A stretch of DNA of 8,958 bases, taken from a bacterium. Lineage in GTDB: Bacteria > Hydrogenedentota > Hydrogenedentia > Hydrogenedentiales > SLHB01. This document shows positions 1 through 8,840 of this stretch, one piece after another (within the stretch, counting starts at the first letter, position 1; each line of letters begins with the position of its first letter). Both the position numbers and the translations under genes were made by a program. The notes beneath the pieces are model-generated. The model made no database searches, was not told where the DNA came from, and saw only the letters and a program-made list of their open reading frames with translations. The DNA lies in NCBI GenBank assembly GCA_024231375.1, contig JAAEQP010001778.1, forward strand, positions 1-8,958, read 5' to 3'.

Positions 1-31
1 CCCAGGCCACGGACCGGATGAACCTACTCAT
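1..31 (-). CDS. Start of an unidentified gene, cut off by the left window edge
   Basis: An ATG at 31-29 overlaps the TGA stop (30-28) of the preceding TPR-like gene in an ATGA arrangement, which usually means translational coupling. Only ten codons are visible, reading MSRFIRSVAW, and the frame is open to the window edge. This is too little to assign a family. The coupling places it as the fourth gene of the minus-strand operon that begins with the small precursor-like peptide, so a maturation, transport or regulatory protein would fit, but that is inference from position only. Confidence 0.5.
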   Translation of the reverse strand, partial: MSRFIRSVAW

Positions 32-1512
32 GGTGCGCTCTCCCGTTCACGAAACGCTGCATCAAGCGCTCTCAACAGTGTGGGATCCTTTGTACGGGCC
101 CGCACGTCTTCCCAGATGGCCCATTGCTCCTCGACGTTTCCTAACTTGCCAAGGGCCTGTCCCATGATGAAGAGTCCGCGGTCCACTTGGGCCGGATCGT
201 CTTCCTGGGCTACGTACACATTCAGCGCATCGAGCACCCCGTCGTAATCCTCCTGCAGATAGAGTAGCCGTGCCAGGAGCATGAGCGCACGGGGCGGCGC
301 TCCCTTGTCGATGGTCTCCCGAAGAAGGGTCTCCGCCGATCCGTAAGCCTTCCACGCATCCGAGTAGACACGGGCCAAGGCCATGGCAGCCTCATGTGCC
401 ACGTCGTCGCCTTCGCCGTAGATCATCGCGAAGTCGTAGTAGCGCTCGGCGTCGGTGTAGCGCTCGATGCCGGCCAATGAGTCGCCGCATTTCTTTGCGC
501 ACACGGCATGGGATCCCGATGCATCCGGTCTCAGACTCACGCTCTGGGTCAGCAAATCGAGGCAGGCCGCGAGTGTCCCGCTCGCGCAGGCGTCGCCCTT
601 CTCCGAATCCTGTCCAAGCAGGGATCGCGCATCTTTCGAGCGAAGGCCGACGCCCTCGACGATACCCGTCACTGTTTCAAGGATGTCGCCGGCTGACACC
701 GCGTCGGCCCCATCCGACAAGGCGAACGACGAGGCCCCTTTCACCAGAGCGCGGTAGTGCTGCGACATGGCCGTCTCGTCCGAGGCGTAGTCGGCCGCAA
801 ACATACCCCGGGCCGCCGATGCGATGGGAGTCAGTGCCGTCGCGGGACGCCGGTACGCCTCGATCCGTCTGCGGCACAGGGCCACGTGTCGGCTCCATTC
901 GCCGGAATCCTCGCTGTCCCGCGACAGCCGGTCCGCCCAACAGGGCTCGCCCAGCGAGTCGAGCGCATTGACGAGGGTCGCGCGGTATTGCCCCTGCCAG
1001 AGCCGCGAGGTGTCGTACCACTTGAGGGCGCTGCTCAGCGCTCCTTCCAGTTCCTGGCGATTCCCTTCGTCGGTCCAGTACCGGATCAGGTGGTGCGCCG
1101 CCCGCAAGCCGCTCCGCGTTCGCGGGTGCTCCGCCTCCCATCGGCCGGCCATCTGGACCGCATCCTCAGGCGGAAGATGGGTGAGCACAAGGTCGAGGGC
1201 CCGGTCGCCGGCCACCGTGTCCGCATGGTCCCACGCGAACGCTCTCATCCACTCGGACATCTTGGTTGACCACGGCGCCGCCGTGCCGAGGAACTCGACC
1301 GCGTCAGCGCCCGCCTGGTCGCCGGCATGATCGTGTGCGATCCCCCGCGCCAAATCCCCTTTGTCCGCGTCCGGGCGTTCCCGCAACGCGTCGGCAAGCC
1401 GGGCCTCGAACGAACCCGGCCCGTAAGGCCCCGCCGACCACGCCCCGCAACAGACCAGCAAGGCCGCTATCGTCGCGCCACACGCTACAGACCTGGATCT
1501 AGCCAACACCAT
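28..1512 (-). CDS. Secreted TPR-like repeat protein of unknown function
   Basis: A 494-residue protein with an N-terminal Sec-type signal: basic residues at 5-7, a hydrophobic stretch at about 10-24, and a plausible cleavage site after AWSA (residue 27). The mature part is mostly helical. The clearest TPR-like helix pairs lie at about 348-475 (around ERYTDAERYYDFAMIYG, PRALMLLARLLYLQEDY and RGLFIMGQALGKLG). Several cysteines (191, 213, 309, 317, 338, 342) would suit an oxidising envelope compartment. The ATG start at 1512 is supported by AAGGAGGGG directly upstream, and the gene overlaps the end of the kinase-like gene by 14 bases. TPR proteins are usually interaction scaffolds, so in this operon it may hold a peptide product or an export partner in the envelope. 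No catalytic motif is visible and the function is not known. Confidence 0.85.
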   Translation of the reverse strand: MVLARSRSVACGATIAALLVCCGAWSAGPYGPGSFEARLADALRERPDADKGDLARGIAHDHAGDQAGADAVEFLGTAAPWSTKMSEWMRAFAWDHADTVAGDRALDLVLTHLPPEDAVQMAGRWEAEHPRTRSGLRAAHHLIRYWTDEGNRQELEGALSSALKWYDTSRLWQGQYRATLVNALDSLGEPCWADRLSRDSEDSGEWSRHVALCRRRIEAYRRPATALTPIASAARGMFAADYASDETAMSQHYRALVKGASSFALSDGADAVSAGDILETVTGIVEGVGLRSKDARSLLGQDSEKGDACASGTLAACLDLLTQSVSLRPDASGSHAVCAKKCGDSLAGIERYTDAERYYDFAMIYGEGDDVAHEAAMALARVYSDAWKAYGSAETLLRETIDKGAPPRALMLLARLLYLQEDYDGVLDALNVYVAQEDDPAQVDRGLFIMGQALGKLGNVEEQWAIWEDVRARTKDPTLLRALDAAFRERESAP

Positions 1513-2461
1513 TCCCCTCCTTGAGCACCCCCATCACCGCGGATACCGTGTCCGGCAAGTGCCCCACCGTCAGCGAATGAAGTGAAACCTTCTCAAAGAA
1601 CCGCGCCACCGCCGGGAGCATGGCGCCCAACGGCGGATGGGGGGGATGCATGTGGTTTATGAGCACCCGCAACGCCGTCGACGCGCGGCATGGCCCCGTG
1701 CGCGCGGCCCGGGCGAACGTGCGTTCGTCACGCTGAATCAACTCATGCGAACGCTGCGGATTCGCCGGCGGCGGCTCACCAACGCCCAGCGTATACATGC
1801 GGCCCCACTCCTCCAAGGGCTCCTGAACCGAAACCGATCGCGTCTCGCCGCCCTCGCCGGGCTCCAGAAAGAACACCCACCGCACCGGCACGTCGTCGCC
1901 GCCTGCCGGGATCGCGCCGGCCGCGGCCCGCTCAAGATCGCCGCTATCCATCAGTTGCCGGGTAAATGGACGAATCGTCCTGCGCGTGTGCAGCGGGTGG
2001 ATTCGGCGCGATTCAAGGTCAACCGGGGCCACATCGTCCCCCAGCAGGATCAGCCCCTCCGCCTCCAGCGCCATGGCCAGCGTGGTCTTGCCGCTGGTCG
2101 ACGCGCCCACGAAGATCGCCGCCCCAGATTCCGTACACACACTCGAAGCATGCAGAAACCGCAGATCGGGACGGCCACGCACCAGCAACAGTTGAATCAG
2201 GTCGTCCACCCGCGGCCATGTGTCCCCCAACGACAGGATGGCTGTCCGACCCTCGAACGATACGCGGTACCCGCCGTCCAGCCGTTCGATGGAGAGGTCG
2301 AACACAGAACCGTCGCCCGCACCGCCGTCTTGCGCCTCCCCCGACTGCGCACGCAACGTCTCGGCGACGGAATCGTCGTCCGTCCGGACGACAAACCGGC
2401 GCCCCAACGCCGTCCACTCAACTGCGGTGGCGCGGCTGTCCCCTACAGACACCTTGGTCAA
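1499..2461 (-). CDS. HPr-kinase/PEPCK-like P-loop protein, probable RiPP peptide kinase
   Basis: A 320-residue soluble protein. Seen directly: a His in the motif FLHASSV (His104), a Walker A loop GASTSGKT at 119-126, and the sequence LILLGDDVAPV at 138-147, with paired Asp at 142-143. This His / P-loop / Asp-Asp order is that of the catalytic half of HPr kinase/phosphorylase and of the shortened homologues found in lasso-peptide and other RiPP clusters. The regulatory N-terminal domain of true HprK is absent, and residues 1-95 resemble the variable N-terminal segment of the RiPP-linked proteins. Some such enzymes, for example those of paeninodin-type clusters, phosphorylate the C-terminal hydroxyl residue of the precursor. 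Others have no assigned role, including the ScmC-type proteins as I recall them. The start is uncertain: TTG at 2461 (used here) or GTG at 2452, both without a clear Shine-Dalgarno, starting 11 and 20 bases after the stop of the small peptide gene. Coupling to that gene is likely. Confidence 0.85.
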   Translation of the reverse strand: MTKVSVGDSRATAVEWTALGRRFVVRTDDDSVAETLRAQSGEAQDGGAGDGSVFDLSIERLDGGYRVSFEGRTAILSLGDTWPRVDDLIQLLLVRGRPDLRFLHASSVCTESGAAIFVGASTSGKTTLAMALEAEGLILLGDDVAPVDLESRRIHPLHTRRTIRPFTRQLMDSGDLERAAAGAIPAGGDDVPVRWVFFLEPGEGGETRSVSVQEPLEEWGRMYTLGVGEPPPANPQRSHELIQRDERTFARAARTGPCRASTALRVLINHMHPPHPPLGAMLPAVARFFEKVSLHSLTVGHLPDTVSAVMGVLKEGNGVG

Positions 2462-2465
2462 ACCA

Positions 2466-2479
2466 GCACCGTCAGGTGC
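2466..2479 (-). promoter_or_regulatory. Small hairpin across the precursor stop codon
   Basis: On the minus strand, GCACC-TGAC-GGTGC forms a perfect 5-bp stem with a 4-base loop, and the loop contains the TGA stop of the small peptide gene. Stem-loops between a precursor gene and its modification genes often lower downstream expression. This one is short and has no T-tract, so it may be weak or accidental. Confidence 0.3.
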
Positions 2480-2555
2480 AAATGGCCTTTACCTCGTCGC
2501 TCTGGAATTCTTCGTCGTCGTAACTCTCGACGACGGGGCTTTCGTACGGTTCCAT
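2472..2555 (-). CDS. Candidate RiPP precursor peptide, 27 residues
   Basis: A short open frame starting at ATG 2555 and ending at TGA 2474-2472. A strong ribosome-binding site, GGGAGGA, sits about five bases upstream of the ATG, better than that of the next gene. The product begins MEPYESPVVESYDDEE, is strongly acidic, and ends KAICT. Tyr4, Pro7 and Val9 fit the Y-x-x-P-x-(L/V/I) leader pattern recognised by PqqD-like RiPP recognition elements in lasso and related systems. The only Cys and a terminal Thr lie in the last two residues. The next gene encodes an HprK-like protein, a frequent RiPP partner. A classical lasso core is not evident (no Thr at -2 followed by Gly and an Asp/Glu at 7-9), so it is probably another class. 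The ribosome-binding site, motif and neighbour together make a real gene likely. The chemistry is inferred. Confidence 0.65.
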   Translation of the reverse strand: MEPYESPVVESYDDEEFQSDEVKAICT

Positions 2556-2688
2556 CTTCGTCCTCCCTGGGCTCCGGGCTACTAGTTGCCCGGCTCCTCT
2601 GCATCGGCGTCAATGATGGCGTCATGGCGTTTGCCTCTCACGCCGTTTCTAGACTTCAAGGGTACACCGGCTAACTGGTATTTCGCAA

Positions 2689-2868: not shown

Positions 2869-4247
2869 ATGGTTGATGTCGTAGACCGCTTGGCGCACGC
2901 TGTTGCCTGTGCGACGATTCTGACTGCTTGTCTTGTTGGTGTTGCGCGGGCCGACGTGCACGTCGGGGAAGAGCAGAGGGCCTGCATGACCGAGGAATGG
3001 TGGAACAGCACCGACCCTGAAAGGCCTCCTGGCACGCCCCCTTATCCCCCCAACGAGGAAGACGAAGGCTCAGTTCTGATCTATACCCAGCACGGCGATC
3101 TGATCGAACCGATCGAGGGGGGGCCTGGGATGGTGTGTTTCTACTCCCTATTGGGGAATGGTGCTGCCTCCGTTTCAGCGGAGGAAGTGACTGCGACCTC
3201 ACTACATCTGAGGGAAAGGACCTCGCGGACAATGCGGTGACGGAGTTGGAAGACTGCCAGGATCCTGACTACGTGACCGTGTTTTCGCGCGATAACTCAG
3301 ACCGCAAACACTTCATGGATACGGTCGGGTGTATCGTTTCCGCGGAGAAGGTCACCGGGCCGGATTTCGTTTACGCGCGACGGGCAGAATTCACGGAAGT
3401 GTGGTTCAAGACCGATGTCGACGCTGAGGGCCTGGACCGCTTCGGTACCTTTGATTTCAGCCGAACGGAATGCAGGACAAGCCACCCCGAGATCAATGCG
3501 ACTGGTGGTGGCGAGACGGACACTTGGCATTTCAAGCAGATTGTTGTCTGCGCCGTCGAGCCGTCAGGAGACGCGATCATCCGGAAGGGGGTCGCGCGGG
3601 ATGCCACCGTTGGGACGGTCGCTCAGCTCGGCATGAAGATGGCGAATGATATTGAGACGATCAATAAGCACCTGTGGGAAGACGAGGATGGCCCCGAGGG
3701 TTGGGGCCCATGGAGAGATCTCACGGGTATCGCGCCATGGTGGTTCACGGAAGATGCCAACGGGGATAAGTGGGTACCCGTCAGCGTGGGCACGTGGGAC
3801 GAGGATGTGCGCGTCGACACGAAGTACGCGTTCGGAGGCTTTCGACACGATAGCGACTACCTGGCGATAGTGAACCTTTCGCGGTTGCAGGATACGGCGA
3901 TGCTCGACCTCCTCCTGAGCAAATCGGATCATGTGCTCTACGTAACGGATATCACTGTCGCTATTGGTGTTGGGAGGCCGGGAAGGCCCGCGGCCATCGT
4001 GGAAGTCTCAGGATCTGCCGAGACTCTCTTGCACGAATGGGGTCACAACGCGGGTTTGGACTATCATGCAAACATGGCAAACCATGATTGCTGGCCGAAT
4101 GACAAGCCGGGATACCCCCTCAATGTCATGGCACCCAGCGGTAATGGGCAATGGTACATCCGGCGAGGGTGTTGGCACATAGATGATGACGATTGTGATA
4201 CAATGATACAGTACGACCAAGTTAACGCGTATGAGACAGAGGACTAG
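2869..4247 (+). CDS. Secreted metzincin-like zinc metallopeptidase, interrupted by a -1 frameshift
   Basis: Two overlapping frames together encode one protein of about 459 residues. The first frame starts at ATG 2869 behind GGGGAG and has a signal peptide (hydrophobic VACATILTACLVGV, cleavage probably after ARA). It would stop at 3240. The second frame is open from before 3117 and runs to TAG at 4245-4247. It carries the zinc-site motif HEWGHNAGLDYH (from base 4032) and a downstream NVMAP that fits the Met-turn of metzincins. Cysteines near the C-terminus (in NHDCW, RRGCW and DDDCD) may form disulphides. The change of frame fits a -1 shift at seven G (3117-3123), though a G4 run at 3153-3156 is an alternative. 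It may be a true frameshift mutation, a sequencing error or programmed slippage. The third His is one position later than the usual HExxHxxGxxH. It is the first of three exported proteins on this strand; its substrate is unknown. Confidence 0.75.
3117..3123 (+). other. Run of seven G, probable frameshift site in the metallopeptidase gene
   Basis: In the frame of the signal-peptide part, the codons here are gaG GGG GGG, so the run has the exact X-XXY-YYZ phasing of a -1 slippery heptamer. A one-base backward shift gives EGG followed by AWDGVFLLPIGEW and enters the frame holding the catalytic motif. A lost G would have the same effect. A 6-bp perfect hairpin (3167-3184, CCTCCG / CGGAGG) lies 43 bases downstream, farther than is usual for a frameshift stimulator. 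Confidence 0.45.
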
Positions 4248-4316
4248 CTCTTAGTCTCGAACCTGGATGAAGGGCGGTGCATGAGCGTACCGTTCCATGT
4301 TCGGAGGTGATGAACG

Positions 4317-5102
4317 ATGACACTTGAAGGTCGCGTTCGGGGTGCCATTTCGGTGAGGCCGTTGGCGTGTGTTGTGCTGTTCTCGGTGGCCGCGGGGGCG
4401 GTAGTCGCGCCGATTTCGCCGGCAGAAGAGCAATCTTCTGTCTCCGAAGCCGAGGAGCCCTATGTTGAGCCGCCGTGGCTTGCCGATACACGCCAGTACT
4501 TTCTCATTCAGGACCACAAGGAAGGGAAGAAGTGGGCCGTGCGCAGCCGGCGCCCGAAGCTGCATGAACGGACAGACGATGAGATGGTGTTTATCCTGGA
4601 ATCTGGCCGGGCTGTCCTGGCCGAGAGGCGCGTGGACGGCCAGACGATTCTGGCGATCTCGAAGATGCTGCAACGGACCAAGCCGTCCCCGGAGGTCACG
4701 AAGTTCATTGACGAGTTCCTGAGCAAAGACCTGACCGGCAAGCGGATCGACCGGAATCACTACAGGGCGATGACGGAAGCCATCGCCGCGCTTGGATTGT
4801 ACAGGTCGGACGACGCGTTCAAGGTGCTCTTCAGAGTCTCGCAGCCGGCCTTCTGGGAGAAACGTGTGTGGGCATCCGTGGAGAGCCCACCGGACGCGGA
4901 CCGTTGGGATCCCCTTGACCGGCTTCGTGCAGAAGCGGCAGGTTGGATAGGCGAGTGGGATCCCGAGATCGCGGAGCCTGCTCTGCTGGAACTGGCGGAG
5001 ATTGAAGGGCCCGGATCGCGGGTTGCGGAGGTCATTGATCTTAGGCTCGAAGTGATCGATCAGCGGAAGCGAGGGGTGTACGTCCGTGACAGTATACCCT
5101 GA
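4317..5102 (+). CDS. Exported HEAT-like protein of unknown function
   Basis: A 261-residue protein with an N-terminal signal (hydrophobic LACVVLFSVAAGAVVAPI at about 16-33, then an acidic linker rich in Glu and Ser). Residues from about 70 onward are helical. The segment around LRAEAAGWIGEWDPEIAEPALLELAEI (about 212-238) looks like a HEAT-type helix pair, with a related pair near TEAIAALGLYRSDDAFKVLF. A strong ribosome-binding site, GGAGGTGA at 4303-4310, fixes the ATG at 4317. It begins 69 bases after the metallopeptidase stop and is followed after 82 bases by another exported protein, so one transcript is plausible. No catalytic residues are apparent. A scaffolding or adaptor role in the periplasm or outside the cell is the most that can be inferred, and I do not recognise the family. 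Confidence 0.8.
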   Translation: MTLEGRVRGAISVRPLACVVLFSVAAGAVVAPISPAEEQSSVSEAEEPYVEPPWLADTRQYFLIQDHKEGKKWAVRSRRPKLHERTDDEMVFILESGRAVLAERRVDGQTILAISKMLQRTKPSPEVTKFIDEFLSKDLTGKRIDRNHYRAMTEAIAALGLYRSDDAFKVLFRVSQPAFWEKRVWASVESPPDADRWDPLDRLRAEAAGWIGEWDPEIAEPALLELAEIEGPGSRVAEVIDLRLEVIDQRKRGVYVRDSIP

Positions 5103-5184
5103 ATCTCCAGAATCGCGCCATGGGCATGCGTCGCCGGCATCGTGCGACTGACCTGGGGAGTCGGACTTCAGAGGAGGGTGAACC

Positions 5185-6138
5185 GTGGATTCTATGAACC
5201 GAGACGTTCCGGTCACTTCGTACGCCTGGGTTGGCCTGCTAGCACTGGCCTTGTTCGGACTCCCGGCGGCGGCGATCGAGATCACTGACCTGACAAAGGA
5301 GACGCCGGACTTCCGGCTGCTGATCCTCGAACAAAGACTTACCGAAGAATCGCTTGCCGAGATCAACGAGACACGATACACCCGGGACAGGGACGAGCGA
5401 CATCGTCGTTTCCTAGCACTGACGAGCGACGCCAACGCCCCGTTCGAGGTCAGGCGCTGGGCGACGCTCGAAGTGATGCGCTACATGTTGAATCCGCTCG
5501 GTGAATACCATGAGGCGCTGCGGATGGGGGATGCGTGGCTCGCGAAGCACCCGGATGACCCGATGGAGATCAAGATCCGTTGCGCCTTGGCGAGGATCTA
5601 CGTGGGGAGGGCGAGCTCGAAGAAGCTCGCGGAGCTTCAGGAGCGCGAAATCCGTGAACCCTTCAAGCCGTCCCGTCACGAGCGACTAGACGCCGTGCGA
5701 CGGCTAATGGATCCCATCTTTGTCAAACACAGCGAACCCACCTATGACTTGGTTCGCGCGCATCAAGAGTACGCATCCGCGCTCGGTACACTGGGCACCG
5801 GAGTGCCGGACGAGTGGGAACGCAGCGATGAGGCGCAGGCGTTGGACCCGAGGGCGCGGGAGGCCCGGATGCTCAGGATGCGCCACGGGTTTCACCAGGA
5901 ACAGGTTGGACATCTCAAGGCCGCCGAAGGACTTGTCCAGATGGTCATCGACGACCCGAAGGTGACGAAGGATGCGCAACTACTACAGGTCAAGGAAGGG
6001 GCATTGAGGTCCATTCAACACCATGCCATGCTCGCGGAGCAGGAGGCGCAGTGGGTCCTCAAACGCGCGGAAGGTGTGGAATCGCTCGTTGTGGACAAGG
6101 CCGTTGAGCAGGTTTGGCAAGAAGCGACCGAAGAATAG
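5185..6138 (+). CDS. Exported TPR-like protein of unknown function
   Basis: A 317-residue protein. The N-terminus has a hydrophobic segment SYAWVGLLALALFGLPAAA (about 12-30), either a signal peptide cleaved after AAA or a membrane anchor. The rest is hydrophilic and helical. Residues about 88-150 read like TPR helices (EVRRWATLEVMRYMLN, EYHEALRMGDAWLAKHPDD, IKIRCALARIYVGR), and later helices around 188-210 and 245-300 continue the pattern. The start is GTG at 5185, preceded by GAGGAGG with seven bases between; an ATG three codons later lies too far from that site. It is the last gene of the plus-strand set. Like the minus-strand protein at 28-1512 it is an exported TPR-like protein, but I see no clear sequence relationship between them. 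Confidence 0.82.
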   Translation: MDSMNRDVPVTSYAWVGLLALALFGLPAAAIEITDLTKETPDFRLLILEQRLTEESLAEINETRYTRDRDERHRRFLALTSDANAPFEVRRWATLEVMRYMLNPLGEYHEALRMGDAWLAKHPDDPMEIKIRCALARIYVGRASSKKLAELQEREIREPFKPSRHERLDAVRRLMDPIFVKHSEPTYDLVRAHQEYASALGTLGTGVPDEWERSDEAQALDPRAREARMLRMRHGFHQEQVGHLKAAEGLVQMVIDDPKVTKDAQLLQVKEGALRSIQHHAMLAEQEAQWVLKRAEGVESLVVDKAVEQVWQEATEE

Positions 6139-6492: not shown

Positions 6493-6497
6493 GTTCA
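6469..6497. repeat. Left inverted repeat of the IS21 element
   Basis: This begins TGTCGGAGCGTAGCGACG and ends in TCGTTCA, whose last three bases are the complement of the istB stop codon. It matches the right end in the opposite orientation, with a one-base gap after GTAGCGA and a second short gap before TCGTTCA. Confidence 0.65.
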
Positions 6498-7271
6498 AGT
6501 GTCTTTGTTCTTCTTACCTGATGGCTTGGTGGTAGTCAAGTCTTTGGTCTTGCGTTTTCGCATGGATTCTCCTTTGAGCGTGATGGTGTAGGCGTTGTGG
6601 ATGAGTCTGTCAAGGATGGCGTCGGCCAGGGTGGGGTCGCCGATGGTCTCGTGCCAGTGCTTGACGGGGAGTTGGGCGGCGATGAGGGTTGAGCCTCGAT
6701 CGTAGCGGTCTTCCATGACCTCGAAGAGGTCCCGTCTTTGTTCGTCCGTCAGGGGCGCCGTCCCCCAATCGTCGAGCACGAGGAGTTGGGCTCTGGCGAG
6801 GGCGCGCAGGAGTTTGTCGTAGCGTCCGTCCACCTTGGCGATGGCGAGGTCCTGGAAGAGGCGCGCGATGCGGAAGTACAGAACGGGGTAGCCCTCGCGG
6901 CAGGCTTTGTTGCCAAGCGCGCAGGCGAGGTAGCTCTTGCCGGCGCCGGTAGGCCCGGTGAGGATGACGTTGTGGTGTTGGCGGATCCAGTCGCAGCCGG
7001 CCAGGCAGAGCATGAGGGACTTGTCGAGCCCGCGGGGGTGTCGGTAGTCGATGTCTTCAATGGTGGCGGCCTGGCGTAGTCGGGCGCGCTTGAGCCGGGT
7101 TTTGAGGCGGCGGTTTTCGCGGTCGGTGTACTCGCAGTCCACGAGCAGGCCGAAGCGTTCGTCGAAGGTGAGGGCATCGCGGTCGGGCAGGTCCATTTGT
7201 TCGATGAGGGCCTTCTGCATCCCCGTGAGCCTCAGTTCGCGCAGTTTGTCGAGTGTGGGATGAATCAGCAT
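6495..7271 (-). CDS. istB: IS21-family helper ATPase IstB
   Basis: A 258-residue AAA+ ATPase related to DnaC. In the IS21 family IstB forms ATP-dependent assemblies on DNA and helps the IstA transposase choose and use the target. Visible motifs: Walker A GPTGAGKS at 106-113, Walker B LLVLDDWG at 153-160, a sensor-like strand STLIAAQLP, and DRLIHNA near the C-terminus with an arginine that fits the AAA+ arginine position. The N-terminal helical part (about 1-75) is of normal length, and the full protein is in the usual 240-260 range. The ATG at 7271 has AAGGAG about 11 bases upstream and comes 21 bases after the istA stop. The basic C-terminal tail (RKRKTKDL and SGKKNK) is a common variable feature. 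No damage is seen. Confidence 0.95.
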   Translation of the reverse strand: MLIHPTLDKLRELRLTGMQKALIEQMDLPDRDALTFDERFGLLVDCEYTDRENRRLKTRLKRARLRQAATIEDIDYRHPRGLDKSLMLCLAGCDWIRQHHNVILTGPTGAGKSYLACALGNKACREGYPVLYFRIARLFQDLAIAKVDGRYDKLLRALARAQLLVLDDWGTAPLTDEQRRDLFEVMEDRYDRGSTLIAAQLPVKHWHETIGDPTLADAILDRLIHNAYTITLKGESMRKRKTKDLTTTKPSGKKNKDT

Positions 7272-7292
7272 GGTGGCGTGTTCTCCTTTCTG

Positions 7293-8840
7293 TCAGTGGC
7301 GTTGGTAATAGTCCGCCCCGCGCACGTTTTCATGCTCGATGGGCGGTGGCGCGGATGATTGTGTGGCCAGGGGTTTCTTGTCGAGTTCGTTGTTGAGGAT
7401 GGACTTGACGCTTCGGTACGAGGGCGACTGGATGGCCAGGGCACGCAGGCAGGCGGCTTCGAGCCGGTCCACGCCGTAAACCTCGCCCAAGCGTTTGATG
7501 CCCATACAGGCGCGAAACCCCTGCTGGGGATGGGGGCGCGAGGCAATGATTTGCTTGGCCACTTCAGCGGTGGCTTGGCCGGCTTTGCCCACCCACCGGA
7601 TAACGCGCTCGGGCGTCCATTCGGCGTGGGCGCGATGACTTTCGGGCATGTGTTCGTTCTTCGTGGTGTGGCGGTGCTTCTTGTGGGAACGCAGATGGCT
7701 GGCCACGCGCACGCCCTGGTGAAAAACCTCGACGGCCGTGATGGTCAAGCGGACGTGGACCTCCTGTTTCACCAGGCGGTAGGGGACGCTGTAGTAATGG
7801 TCGTCGGCGCGGACGTGGTAATCCAGACTCACGCGGGCCTTGACCCACTCGGCATACTCGTACCGGGTCGCGGGCAGTGGCACCAGGGCCGGTTTGTCCA
7901 CCTTCTCGAACAGCGAGCGCCTCGAACCCTCGAACTGCTGGAACGGCCGGCGATTGTATTCCACCAGCAAGACGGAGATAGCCTGGTTCAGTTCCGTCAG
8001 GCTGAAGAAGGTGCGGTTTCTGAGCTTGGCCAGGATGCGTCGCTCCACCCCCTGGACGCCCGCCTCCACTTTGGCCTTGTCCTTGGGCTTCTGGACCCGG
8101 GTGGGCAGAATGGCCGTGCCGTAATGGGCGGCCATCTCGGCATACGTGGGGTTCGCATCCGGATCGTACCGGCACGAATACGAGACGCCGCTGCGCAGAT
8201 TGTCCGGGATGACGAGCTCGGGCGCACCGCCGAAGAACTCGAACGCTCGCACATGCGAGGCGATCCAGTCCGGCAGGGTCTGGGTCCACGTGGCCTGCGT
8301 GTACGTGTAATTGCTGGCTCCCAGCGTGGACACGAAGATCTGTGCCTGACGGATTTCCCCGGTTTCGCGGTTGGTTACCGGCATCGTCATGCCGGCGTAG
8401 TCCACGAACAGCTTCTCTCCGGCCCGGTGGTCCTGGCGCATCCACACCGGCAGTTTGCCCGCCCACTGCCGGTAGAGCTCGCAGAATCGGCTGTACTCAT
8501 AGCCGTCCGGATGGACCGCCTTGTACTCCTCCCACAACAGGAACAGCGTCACGCCTTTGCGTCGCAGTTCCTCGTGCAGATGCTGCCAATCCGGCAGCGG
8601 TCGGGGCGCATTCGTGGGCGACACCGGCGGCGCGAACAGCAACGCCTCCAACTCGCCGTCCGACAGCCCCTGCTGCAACGGCCAGGACAATCCCGCGCGT
8701 TCCGCTCGCTGCAGATACTCCCTCACCGTTGTGCGTCCCATCCCGCAGCTCTGGGCCACGGCCCGGGGACTCAGCTTTCCGCCCCAACTTAACCGTAATA
8801 CTTCTCGGATCTTACGCATGGACAACCGCTCCGCCGACAT
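7293..8840 (-). CDS. istA: IS21-family DDE transposase IstA
   Basis: A 515-residue transposase. The N-terminus has a helix-turn-helix (about 20-45, SPRAVAQSCGMGRTTVREYL) for binding the element ends. The RNase H-like catalytic core shows the acidic triad: Asp147 in KLFVDYAGMTM, Asp213 in LVIPDNLRSGV and Glu259 in KDKAKVEAGVQ, with spacing usual for IS21/Mu-like integrase folds. The C-terminal part from about 320 includes a beta-rich domain (around YHVRADDHYYSVPYRL) as in other family members. The ATG at 8840 follows GGAGGAGAGCG. Length and motifs are complete, and istB follows 21 bases downstream in the standard arrangement, so the enzyme is probably functional. Confidence 0.96.
   Translation of the reverse strand: MSAERLSMRKIREVLRLSWGGKLSPRAVAQSCGMGRTTVREYLQRAERAGLSWPLQQGLSDGELEALLFAPPVSPTNAPRPLPDWQHLHEELRRKGVTLFLLWEEYKAVHPDGYEYSRFCELYRQWAGKLPVWMRQDHRAGEKLFVDYAGMTMPVTNRETGEIRQAQIFVSTLGASNYTYTQATWTQTLPDWIASHVRAFEFFGGAPELVIPDNLRSGVSYSCRYDPDANPTYAEMAAHYGTAILPTRVQKPKDKAKVEAGVQGVERRILAKLRNRTFFSLTELNQAISVLLVEYNRRPFQQFEGSRRSLFEKVDKPALVPLPATRYEYAEWVKARVSLDYHVRADDHYYSVPYRLVKQEVHVRLTITAVEVFHQGVRVASHLRSHKKHRHTTKNEHMPESHRAHAEWTPERVIRWVGKAGQATAEVAKQIIASRPHPQQGFRACMGIKRLGEVYGVDRLEAACLRALAIQSPSYRSVKSILNNELDKKPLATQSSAPPPIEHENVRGADYYQRH

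Follow-up and report, generated by a model that had tools for sequence, protein, structure and literature searches.

The DNA analysed here, called the window below, is the whole of contig JAAEQP010001778.1 (8,958 bases; assembly GCA_024231375.1) from a bacterium of the phylum Hydrogenedentota; the sequence to the left of base 1 cannot be read. Its minus strand carries a 27-codon frame, a gene for an HprK-like kinase, and a gene for a TPR-like protein that is predicted, from its hydrophobic N-terminus, to be exported (Table 1). Only 10 bases separate the stop codon of the short frame from the TTG start of the kinase gene (19 bases if the GTG start used in the database is taken instead). The short frame is a real gene. 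In our opinion, its product is likely the precursor of a ribosomally synthesized and post-translationally modified peptide (RiPP) of a linear, phosphorylated type, similar to the class named LPP (Linear Polyphosphorylated Peptides) and found here outside Bacillota. At 27–31 codons, frames of this kind barely reach, or fall short of, the minimum that gene finders normally require.

Relatives of the kinase provide the first line of evidence. A protein-database search, in which only the 7995 candidates sharing most words were scored, so that further relatives are possible, returned P0002 as the closest relative of the window kinase and P0005 (34%) as a third. A scan of the contigs of GTDB species with an alignment of the window kinase and P0002 gave a single locus, L001, in a Candidatus Hydrogenedentota metagenome-assembled genome (G001), which carries three paralogues of the kinase. 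Among 68 genomes of the phylum, the window kinase finds relatives at E ≤1e-5 only in G001 (three places) and G033 (two places). A kinase profile matches 63 of the 68 genomes at E ≤1e-3, yet the five matches above 300 bits all lie in G001 and G033; the others score no more than about 53 bits, are for the most part confined to short stretches around the P-loop and were not counted as members of the family. For all six kinases scanned against NCBIfam, the top match is TIGR04352, with scores of 20.4 to 41.4 bits where the cut-off is 200.

Short peptides lie upstream of three of these kinases and were located through the kinase alone: MQEYETPAIESYDADDFIDDDALAYLTCYT at L003/L007 (G001 contig C582), MMMPEYETPVIESYDEADFLSDPALAESCSGSTPLGD at L004/L008 (G001 C658) and MTPYDPPRIETFQEESFEADVAQAATC at L006/L009 (G033 C303). 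Thus, four of the five kinase loci that are readable upstream, the window included, have the peptide. The second G033 kinase, on contig C268, begins at the contig end and is left out of this count; C268 is a near-duplicate of C303 that is cut inside the kinase, so that the position of the peptide is lost. The kinase/nucleotidyltransferase loci of G033 designated L009 and L010 are near-duplicates, 83–88% identical. The fifth readable locus, L001, shares the kinase–TPR gene order with the window (the TPR-like proteins are 40% identical) without a peptide frame; a DUF1573 protein is encoded after this pair, at 3611–4702.

A profile of the four kinase-adjacent peptides, when run against the 68 genomes, recovered the three genomic peptides and six more copies in G001, with E-values from 1.1e-11 to 2.8e-8. 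Matches better than 1e-7 come from G001 and G033 alone, and the one that follows stands at 0.08. Twelve weak rows (E 0.08 to 0.97) were dropped as chance matches, and none of them reappeared with a fuller profile, which was built from the profile's own matches and which found the same nine places and no other up to E 0.1. The protein database contributed six matches among 666 candidates, four of which are further distinct peptides, while two duplicate those of L065 and L066; one database peptide, P0012, has a C-terminus, MEPYETPVVESFDVEEFQSDEVKAICT, that is nearly identical to that of the window peptide.

The fourteen distinct peptides, the window peptide included, share the pattern Y-x-x-P-x-[IV]-x7-F-x2-D-x-[VA], followed by a short tail with Cys and Ser/Thr. 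With columns numbered from the Tyr (column 1 is residue 4 of the window peptide, and column 24 is its Thr27), Tyr1 is present in 13 of the 13 peptides readable there, one being cut. Pro4, Ile/Val6, Ser/Thr8, Phe/Tyr9, Phe14, Asp17 and Val/Ala19 are each present in 14/14, and Glu7 and Ala21 in 13/14. In the tail, Ser/Thr occupies column 24 in 11/14 and column 23 in the other three; every tail has at least one Cys, and four have CxC. The peptides carry a net charge of −5 to −10 and are mostly 27–37 residues long (35–37 for L008 and 45 for L066, with the other 12 of 14 below 35). Purine-rich sites precede all eight starts inspected, those of the window and of seven other family members.

The second line of evidence is constraint at the level of codons. 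Over 21 gapless codons of nine genes (the cut L067 was excluded), the ratio of nonsynonymous to synonymous differences (pN/pS) is 0.39 in frame versus 1.71 and 1.26 in the other two frames; pN is below pS in all 36 pairs, and none of 500 column shuffles attains the in-frame ratio. Five of the nine genes owe their selection to the similarity of their peptides; with the four genes next to a kinase alone, the ratio is 0.50 and is attained by 1 of 1000 shuffles. In addition, a profile built without the window peptide recovers it at E 3.5e-14 in a six-frame search of the window, the next best match being at 0.67. A frame open by chance, to which the shortness of the gene and the lack of a peptide upstream of the kinase in L001 might point, is thus ruled out by the codon-level constraint together with the family profile.

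An earlier, sequence-only reading of this stretch had proposed that the 27-codon frame with its ribosome-binding site is a genuine gene, that its neighbour is an HprK-like kinase, and that the peptide is a RiPP-like precursor with a leader motif of the PqqD-binding type, paired with that kinase. All of this agrees with our results: the gene with the leave-one-out profile, the family and the constraint; the kinase with the presence of the characteristic His, P-loop and Asp-Asp motifs and with the predicted fold; and the pairing with the fourteen-peptide family, the kinase loci described above and the PqqD gene in the G033 cassette described below. The codon-level conservation that it anticipated, stronger in the leader than at the C-terminus, is borne out by the pN/pS tests and the alignment. 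Its further expectation, that homologues of the peptide lie beside HprK-like genes, holds at four of the five readable loci and fails at L001, where kinase and TPR-like genes occur without the small frame.

Table 1. Features of the window (positions on the 8,958-base contig)
Feature	Position	Strand	Basis or remark
Precursor peptide gene, 27 codons, MEPYESPVVESYDDEEFQSDEVKAICT	2472..2555	minus	family with 13 other distinct peptides; constraint on codons; recovered at E 3.5e-14 by a profile built without it
Shine-Dalgarno-like GGAGG, 6 bases before ATG	2562..2566	minus	purine-rich sites also in 7 other family members
Leader motif YxxPxV (Tyr4, Pro7, Val9), predicted to be bound by a recognition protein of the PqqD type	2529..2546	minus	conservation; motif function from PMC13381572
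Phe17-x-Ser19, corresponding in the alignment to F-x-T, where the leader of LPP precursors ends; candidate cleavage site	2499..2507	minus	Phe 14/14, Ser/Thr 11/14; LPP cut after F-E-T
Val22-x-Ala24, signal-peptidase-like −3/−1 pattern; other possible cleavage site	2484..2492	minus	Val/Ala 14/14, Ala 13/14
C-terminal Cys26-Thr27; Thr27 is the proposed phosphate acceptor	2475..2480	minus	Ser/Thr at this column in 11/14, one column earlier in the other 3
HprK-like kinase gene, TTG start (GTG 2452 in database)	1499..2461	minus	NCBIfam TIGR04352 29.7 bits, far below cut-off 200
Kinase His101	2150..2152	minus	
Kinase P-loop GASTSGKT (116–123)	2084..2107	minus	
Kinase Asp139-Asp140	2033..2038	minus	role by analogy with BsfK
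TPR-like protein gene; its start overlaps the stop codon of the kinase gene	28..1512	minus	same order in L001, 40% identity
HEWGHN metalloprotease-like protein, apparently split over two frames (2869–3240, 3135–4247)	2869..4247		divergent from the peptide gene
Two proteins with hydrophobic N-termini	4317..6138		very weak HEAT and TPR matches; second protein with a marginal match (E 0.01) to the protein beside the L066 peptide
IS21-like insertion element, IstB and transposase	6495..8840	minus	IstB PF01695, 252 bits; transposase matches the Mu-transposase C-terminus and, below threshold, an integrase core

The third line of evidence is the set of maturation genes found near related kinases. On G033 C303, the order is peptide, kinase and NTP_transf_5 nucleotidyltransferase (64.4 bits, cut-off 31.2), followed by the contig end. 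On G033 C268, the kinase is followed by NTP_transf_5, a solute-binding/TPR protein, a PqqD protein, an S24/S26-like frame and a C45-type hydrolase (119.9 bits, cut-off 85). The nucleotidyltransferase (PF14907) thus directly follows the kinase in both G033 loci; on C268, it is in two pieces (59 and 51.1 bits, cut-off 31.2), which resemble an assembly repeat. The C268 PqqD protein, of 90 residues, matches TIGR04353 of the HPr-rel-A system at 39.1 bits (cut-off 35). A PDB sequence search with the PqqD returned TfuB1 at E 0.048. In G001, contig C596 encodes a solute-binding protein, a PqqD protein (60.4 bits) and an S24 protein (24.3 bits, cut-off 23.3), with neither kinase nor peptide.

The S24/S26-like proteins of G033 and G001 are 40% identical over 102 positions, with Ser–His spacings of 39 and 38 and a His–Asp spacing of 15. 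Only the G001 frame passes Pfam S24, the G033 frame having no Pfam match, and a PDB sequence search with the S24/S26-like frame gave no match below E 0.05 and no peptidase. Among the 68 genomes, this protein has strong matches in none but G001 and G033, and a single weak one (5.1e-4) in G042; peptide, kinase and S24/S26-like protein are therefore strong in the same two of 68 genomes. Approximately 30 neighbouring frames on the peptide contigs were compared with Pfam (some small frames were not scanned) and yielded no RiPP enzyme beyond kinase, nucleotidyltransferase, PqqD and peptidase. No MsbA-like exporter was found among the frames scanned on C268; ABC transporters do occur in G033 on the contigs of another PqqD gene (L081) and of another PF14907 gene (L082).

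The adjoining kinase probably phosphorylates the peptide, and the following scheme is proposed. A PqqD-type recognition protein, encoded elsewhere in the organism, would bind the YxxPxV leader; the HprK-like kinase would then phosphorylate Ser/Thr of the tail (Thr27 in the window peptide) once or several times; an S24/S26 signal-peptidase-like enzyme would cut off the leader behind Ser19 of Phe-x-Ser or behind Ala24 of Val-x-Ala, which would leave a core of eight residues, DEVKAICT, or of three, ICT; and the nucleotidyltransferase may afterwards load the phosphate. We infer binding, phosphorylation and cleavage, as well as their order, and take Thr27 phosphorylation to be the presumptive main modification. 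The scheme builds on features that are directly supported, namely the constrained gene family that is paired with the kinase, the motifs of the kinase and its predicted fold, and the cassette of the related kinase in G033. The cut after [VA]-x-A is proposed because of the −3/−1 rule of signal peptidases, and that after F-x-[ST] because of homology with LPP precursors. The latter have the consensus YxxPxVLxHQxIxFETxxS and are cleaved after FET, and their core Ser3 is polyphosphorylated (PMC13381572). After a cut at [VA]-x-A, a hydroxyl residue would stand at +3 in 11 of the 14 peptides, as in LPP.

Several observations weigh against an LPP-like route. The core Ser3 of LPP has no counterpart if the cut follows F-x-[ST], and the third residue of this triplet, counted from Phe, is Ser in eight peptides (the window peptide included), Thr in three, and Ala, Asp and Arg in one each, whereas the LPP scan motif wants Thr or Ala (4/14). 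The LPP kinase LppK left an S3T variant unphosphorylated, while the window peptide has Thr; in the LPP peptidase LppS, the catalytic Ser29 and His68 are 39 apart, much as here, but Asp93 is 25 from the His, compared with 15 from His to the Asp of GD here (PMC13381572). In the Bsf system, a precursor BsfA with Ala at Tyr, Pro and Leu was still phosphorylated (PMC10368454), which bears on the role given to the leader motif. Genes for PqqD, peptidase and nucleotidyltransferase are absent from the window, which is a whole contig, and peptide and PqqD/peptidase never share a contig (C303 versus C268 in G033; C596 in G001 has no peptide). The nearest kinase relative, L001, has no peptide frame in the 1.1 kb upstream, and shared ancestry of G001 and G033 could explain the co-occurrence of peptide, kinase and peptidase. 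Finally, SPASM domains match on other contigs of both genomes (six in G001, five in G033), including a 536-residue frame on G001 C343 with both PqqD and SPASM matches.

These SPASM genes slightly lowered our estimate for an LPP-like peptide and raised that for another RiPP class, of a radical SAM or Cys-based kind, in which the conserved Cys would be modified and the kinase would be an accessory. We regard such a class as unlikely, even though the Cys found in every tail and the CxC of four of them would suit it. NCBIfam models of the SynChlorMet cassette, a radical SAM system, also match the G033 kinases and PqqD, below cut-off. On the other side, a Ser/Thr close to the C-terminus is no less constant than the Cys. 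No SPASM match falls on peptide or kinase contigs of G001 and G033, and the scanned neighbours on the peptide contigs include no further RiPP enzyme, although both points are weak given the short contigs. G001 C343 and G033 C323, which encodes a SPASM protein, a PF14907 protein (L082) and an ABC transporter on one contig, are possibly other RiPP loci.

If the peptide were a lasso precursor whose core has degenerated, with kinase and nucleotidyltransferase as tailoring enzymes like those of the paeninodin and Bsf subfamilies, the YxxPx[IV] leader and the presence of these two enzymes would be accounted for. Clear lasso B2 domains do occur in G023, G035 and G065, on contigs that also carry other HprK-like genes. 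A lasso core must, however, close a ring of 7–9 residues, and the window peptide has no Gly and only three or eight residues after the possible cuts; the sequence-only reading had also set the lasso core aside, and had noted that no cyclase, radical SAM enzyme or recognition domain is encoded in the window. In the draft genomes of the relatives, B2 (PF13471) is represented by one 43-position fragment in a 567-residue frame of G001 (27.7 bits, just over the cut-off of 26) and by one match below it, of 21.4 bits, in G033, and neither shares a contig with peptide or kinase. The asparagine-synthase matches (three in G001, five in G033) likewise all lie on other contigs; because the family includes ordinary asparagine synthetase, they neither show nor exclude a cyclase. 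A lasso peptide is accordingly very improbable. Slightly less so, but still quite unlikely, is a role as a small protein, regulatory or structural, which stays unprocessed, accompanies exported TPR-like proteins and is controlled by the kinase in the way that HprK controls HPr. Of the eight G001 copies, six lie on short contigs that carry no kinase gene, and the peptides of L063, L064 and L065 are flanked by two shared families with hydrophobic N-termini, one TPR-like and the other of about 290–390 residues. Nevertheless, the leader motif is that of PqqD-type recognition, and the kinase cassette of G033 contains PqqD and an S24/S26-like peptidase. No companion family is common to all peptide loci, L062 and L008 having companions only pairwise and the window having no shared companion.

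Since precursors sit beside exported proteins, an extension of the LPP-like reading can be offered tentatively, although we hold it to be doubtful. One enzyme set (three kinases and one S24/S26-like peptidase in G001) might serve many scattered, very short precursors, several of them beside genes for exported proteins, and the tiny phosphorylated Cys-Ser/Thr core might serve those proteins, for example by signalling or as an attached moiety, and would then not be an antibiotic.

Some further observations concern the surroundings of these genes. The other HprK-like genes on contigs with lasso B2 domains are L084 (G023 C52), L085 (G065 C39) and L086 (G035 C44); these contigs also encode PF14907 in G023 and G065 and PqqD in G035, and YxxP peptide frames occur in G023 (three in a row, MKKxYExPKVVEYG...) and in G065. 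A WD40-caspase-like protein is encoded at 2–3400 of L007, on the contig of one peptide, and a Fic-family and an AbiU2-like protein at 8457–10316 of L065, on that of another. A blastn search with positions 1–2700 of the window against plasmids gave no match, and viral contigs searched with P0002 and with a back-translated peptide pattern contained no relative.

Comparison with known systems places the peptide among phosphorylated RiPPs. In paeninodin and pseudomycoidin, HPr-kinase homologues phosphorylate the C-terminal Ser of the precursor, and pseudomycoidin has a nucleotidyltransferase; unlike the present system, these peptides have the lasso fold and its enzymes, and the window peptide ends in Thr (PMC8498205). 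The Bsf lasso subfamily (BsfA, K, B1, B2, C, N) is similar in its YxxPxL precursor, its nucleotidyltransferase and its HprK-like kinase, BsfK, which is boosted by a discrete PqqD-type protein and accepts Thr. It differs in having a lasso cyclase, a B2 peptidase, the phosphate on ring Ser3 and a lasso core (PMC10368454). As for the HPr-rel-A system, defined by NCBIfam models of a kinase (TIGR04352) and a PqqD protein (TIGR04353), the G033 PqqD passes its model while the window kinase fails the other.

The closest likeness is to LPP clusters, which combine a precursor, an HprK-like kinase, a discrete recognition protein, a signal-peptidase-I-like peptidase, a nucleotidyltransferase and an MsbA-like exporter (LppA, K, B, S, N, D) and often lie near capsule loci (PMC13381572). 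The window family shares with them the YxxPx[V/I] leader (an N-terminal [Y/W]xxPx[L/V/I/F/A] in 13 of 13 readable peptides), the Pro-x9-Phe spacing (14/14) and the adjacent HprK-like kinase (the window and three relatives), and, in a relative but not in the window, the discrete PqqD, signal-peptidase-like peptidase and nucleotidyltransferase, with no cyclase seen on the cassette contig. The differences lie in the short Cys-Ser/Thr tails, in the lack of an MsbA-like exporter on the G033 cassette contig, in the eight scattered copies in one draft genome, and in the length of the window precursor, 27 residues as against 35–200, a reported range rather than a definition. Moreover, LPPs are called restricted to Bacillota, and the LPP peptidase cluster 'predominantly' so (PMC13381572, 2026), while the relatives described here belong to Hydrogenedentota. 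Because the length is outside the range, the window lacks the other genes and the system is known from genes alone, we file it as LPP-like and not as LPP. The proposal of the sequence-only reading that this is a small RiPP system thus stands, whereas its suggestion of a new class probably does not hold in full, since leader spacing and gene set fit LPP. A full-text search of one literature collection retrieved no paper on such peptides outside Bacillota and none containing the term HPr-rel-A. The present results would carry an LPP-like type of RiPP beyond Bacillota into an uncultured phylum, with its precursors named. With cores this short, a single synthetic peptide together with a kinase and a PqqD protein would suffice to test the site and chemistry of phosphorylation, and the many-precursor layout offers a handle on the function of phosphorylated linear RiPPs, which the LPP report leaves open.

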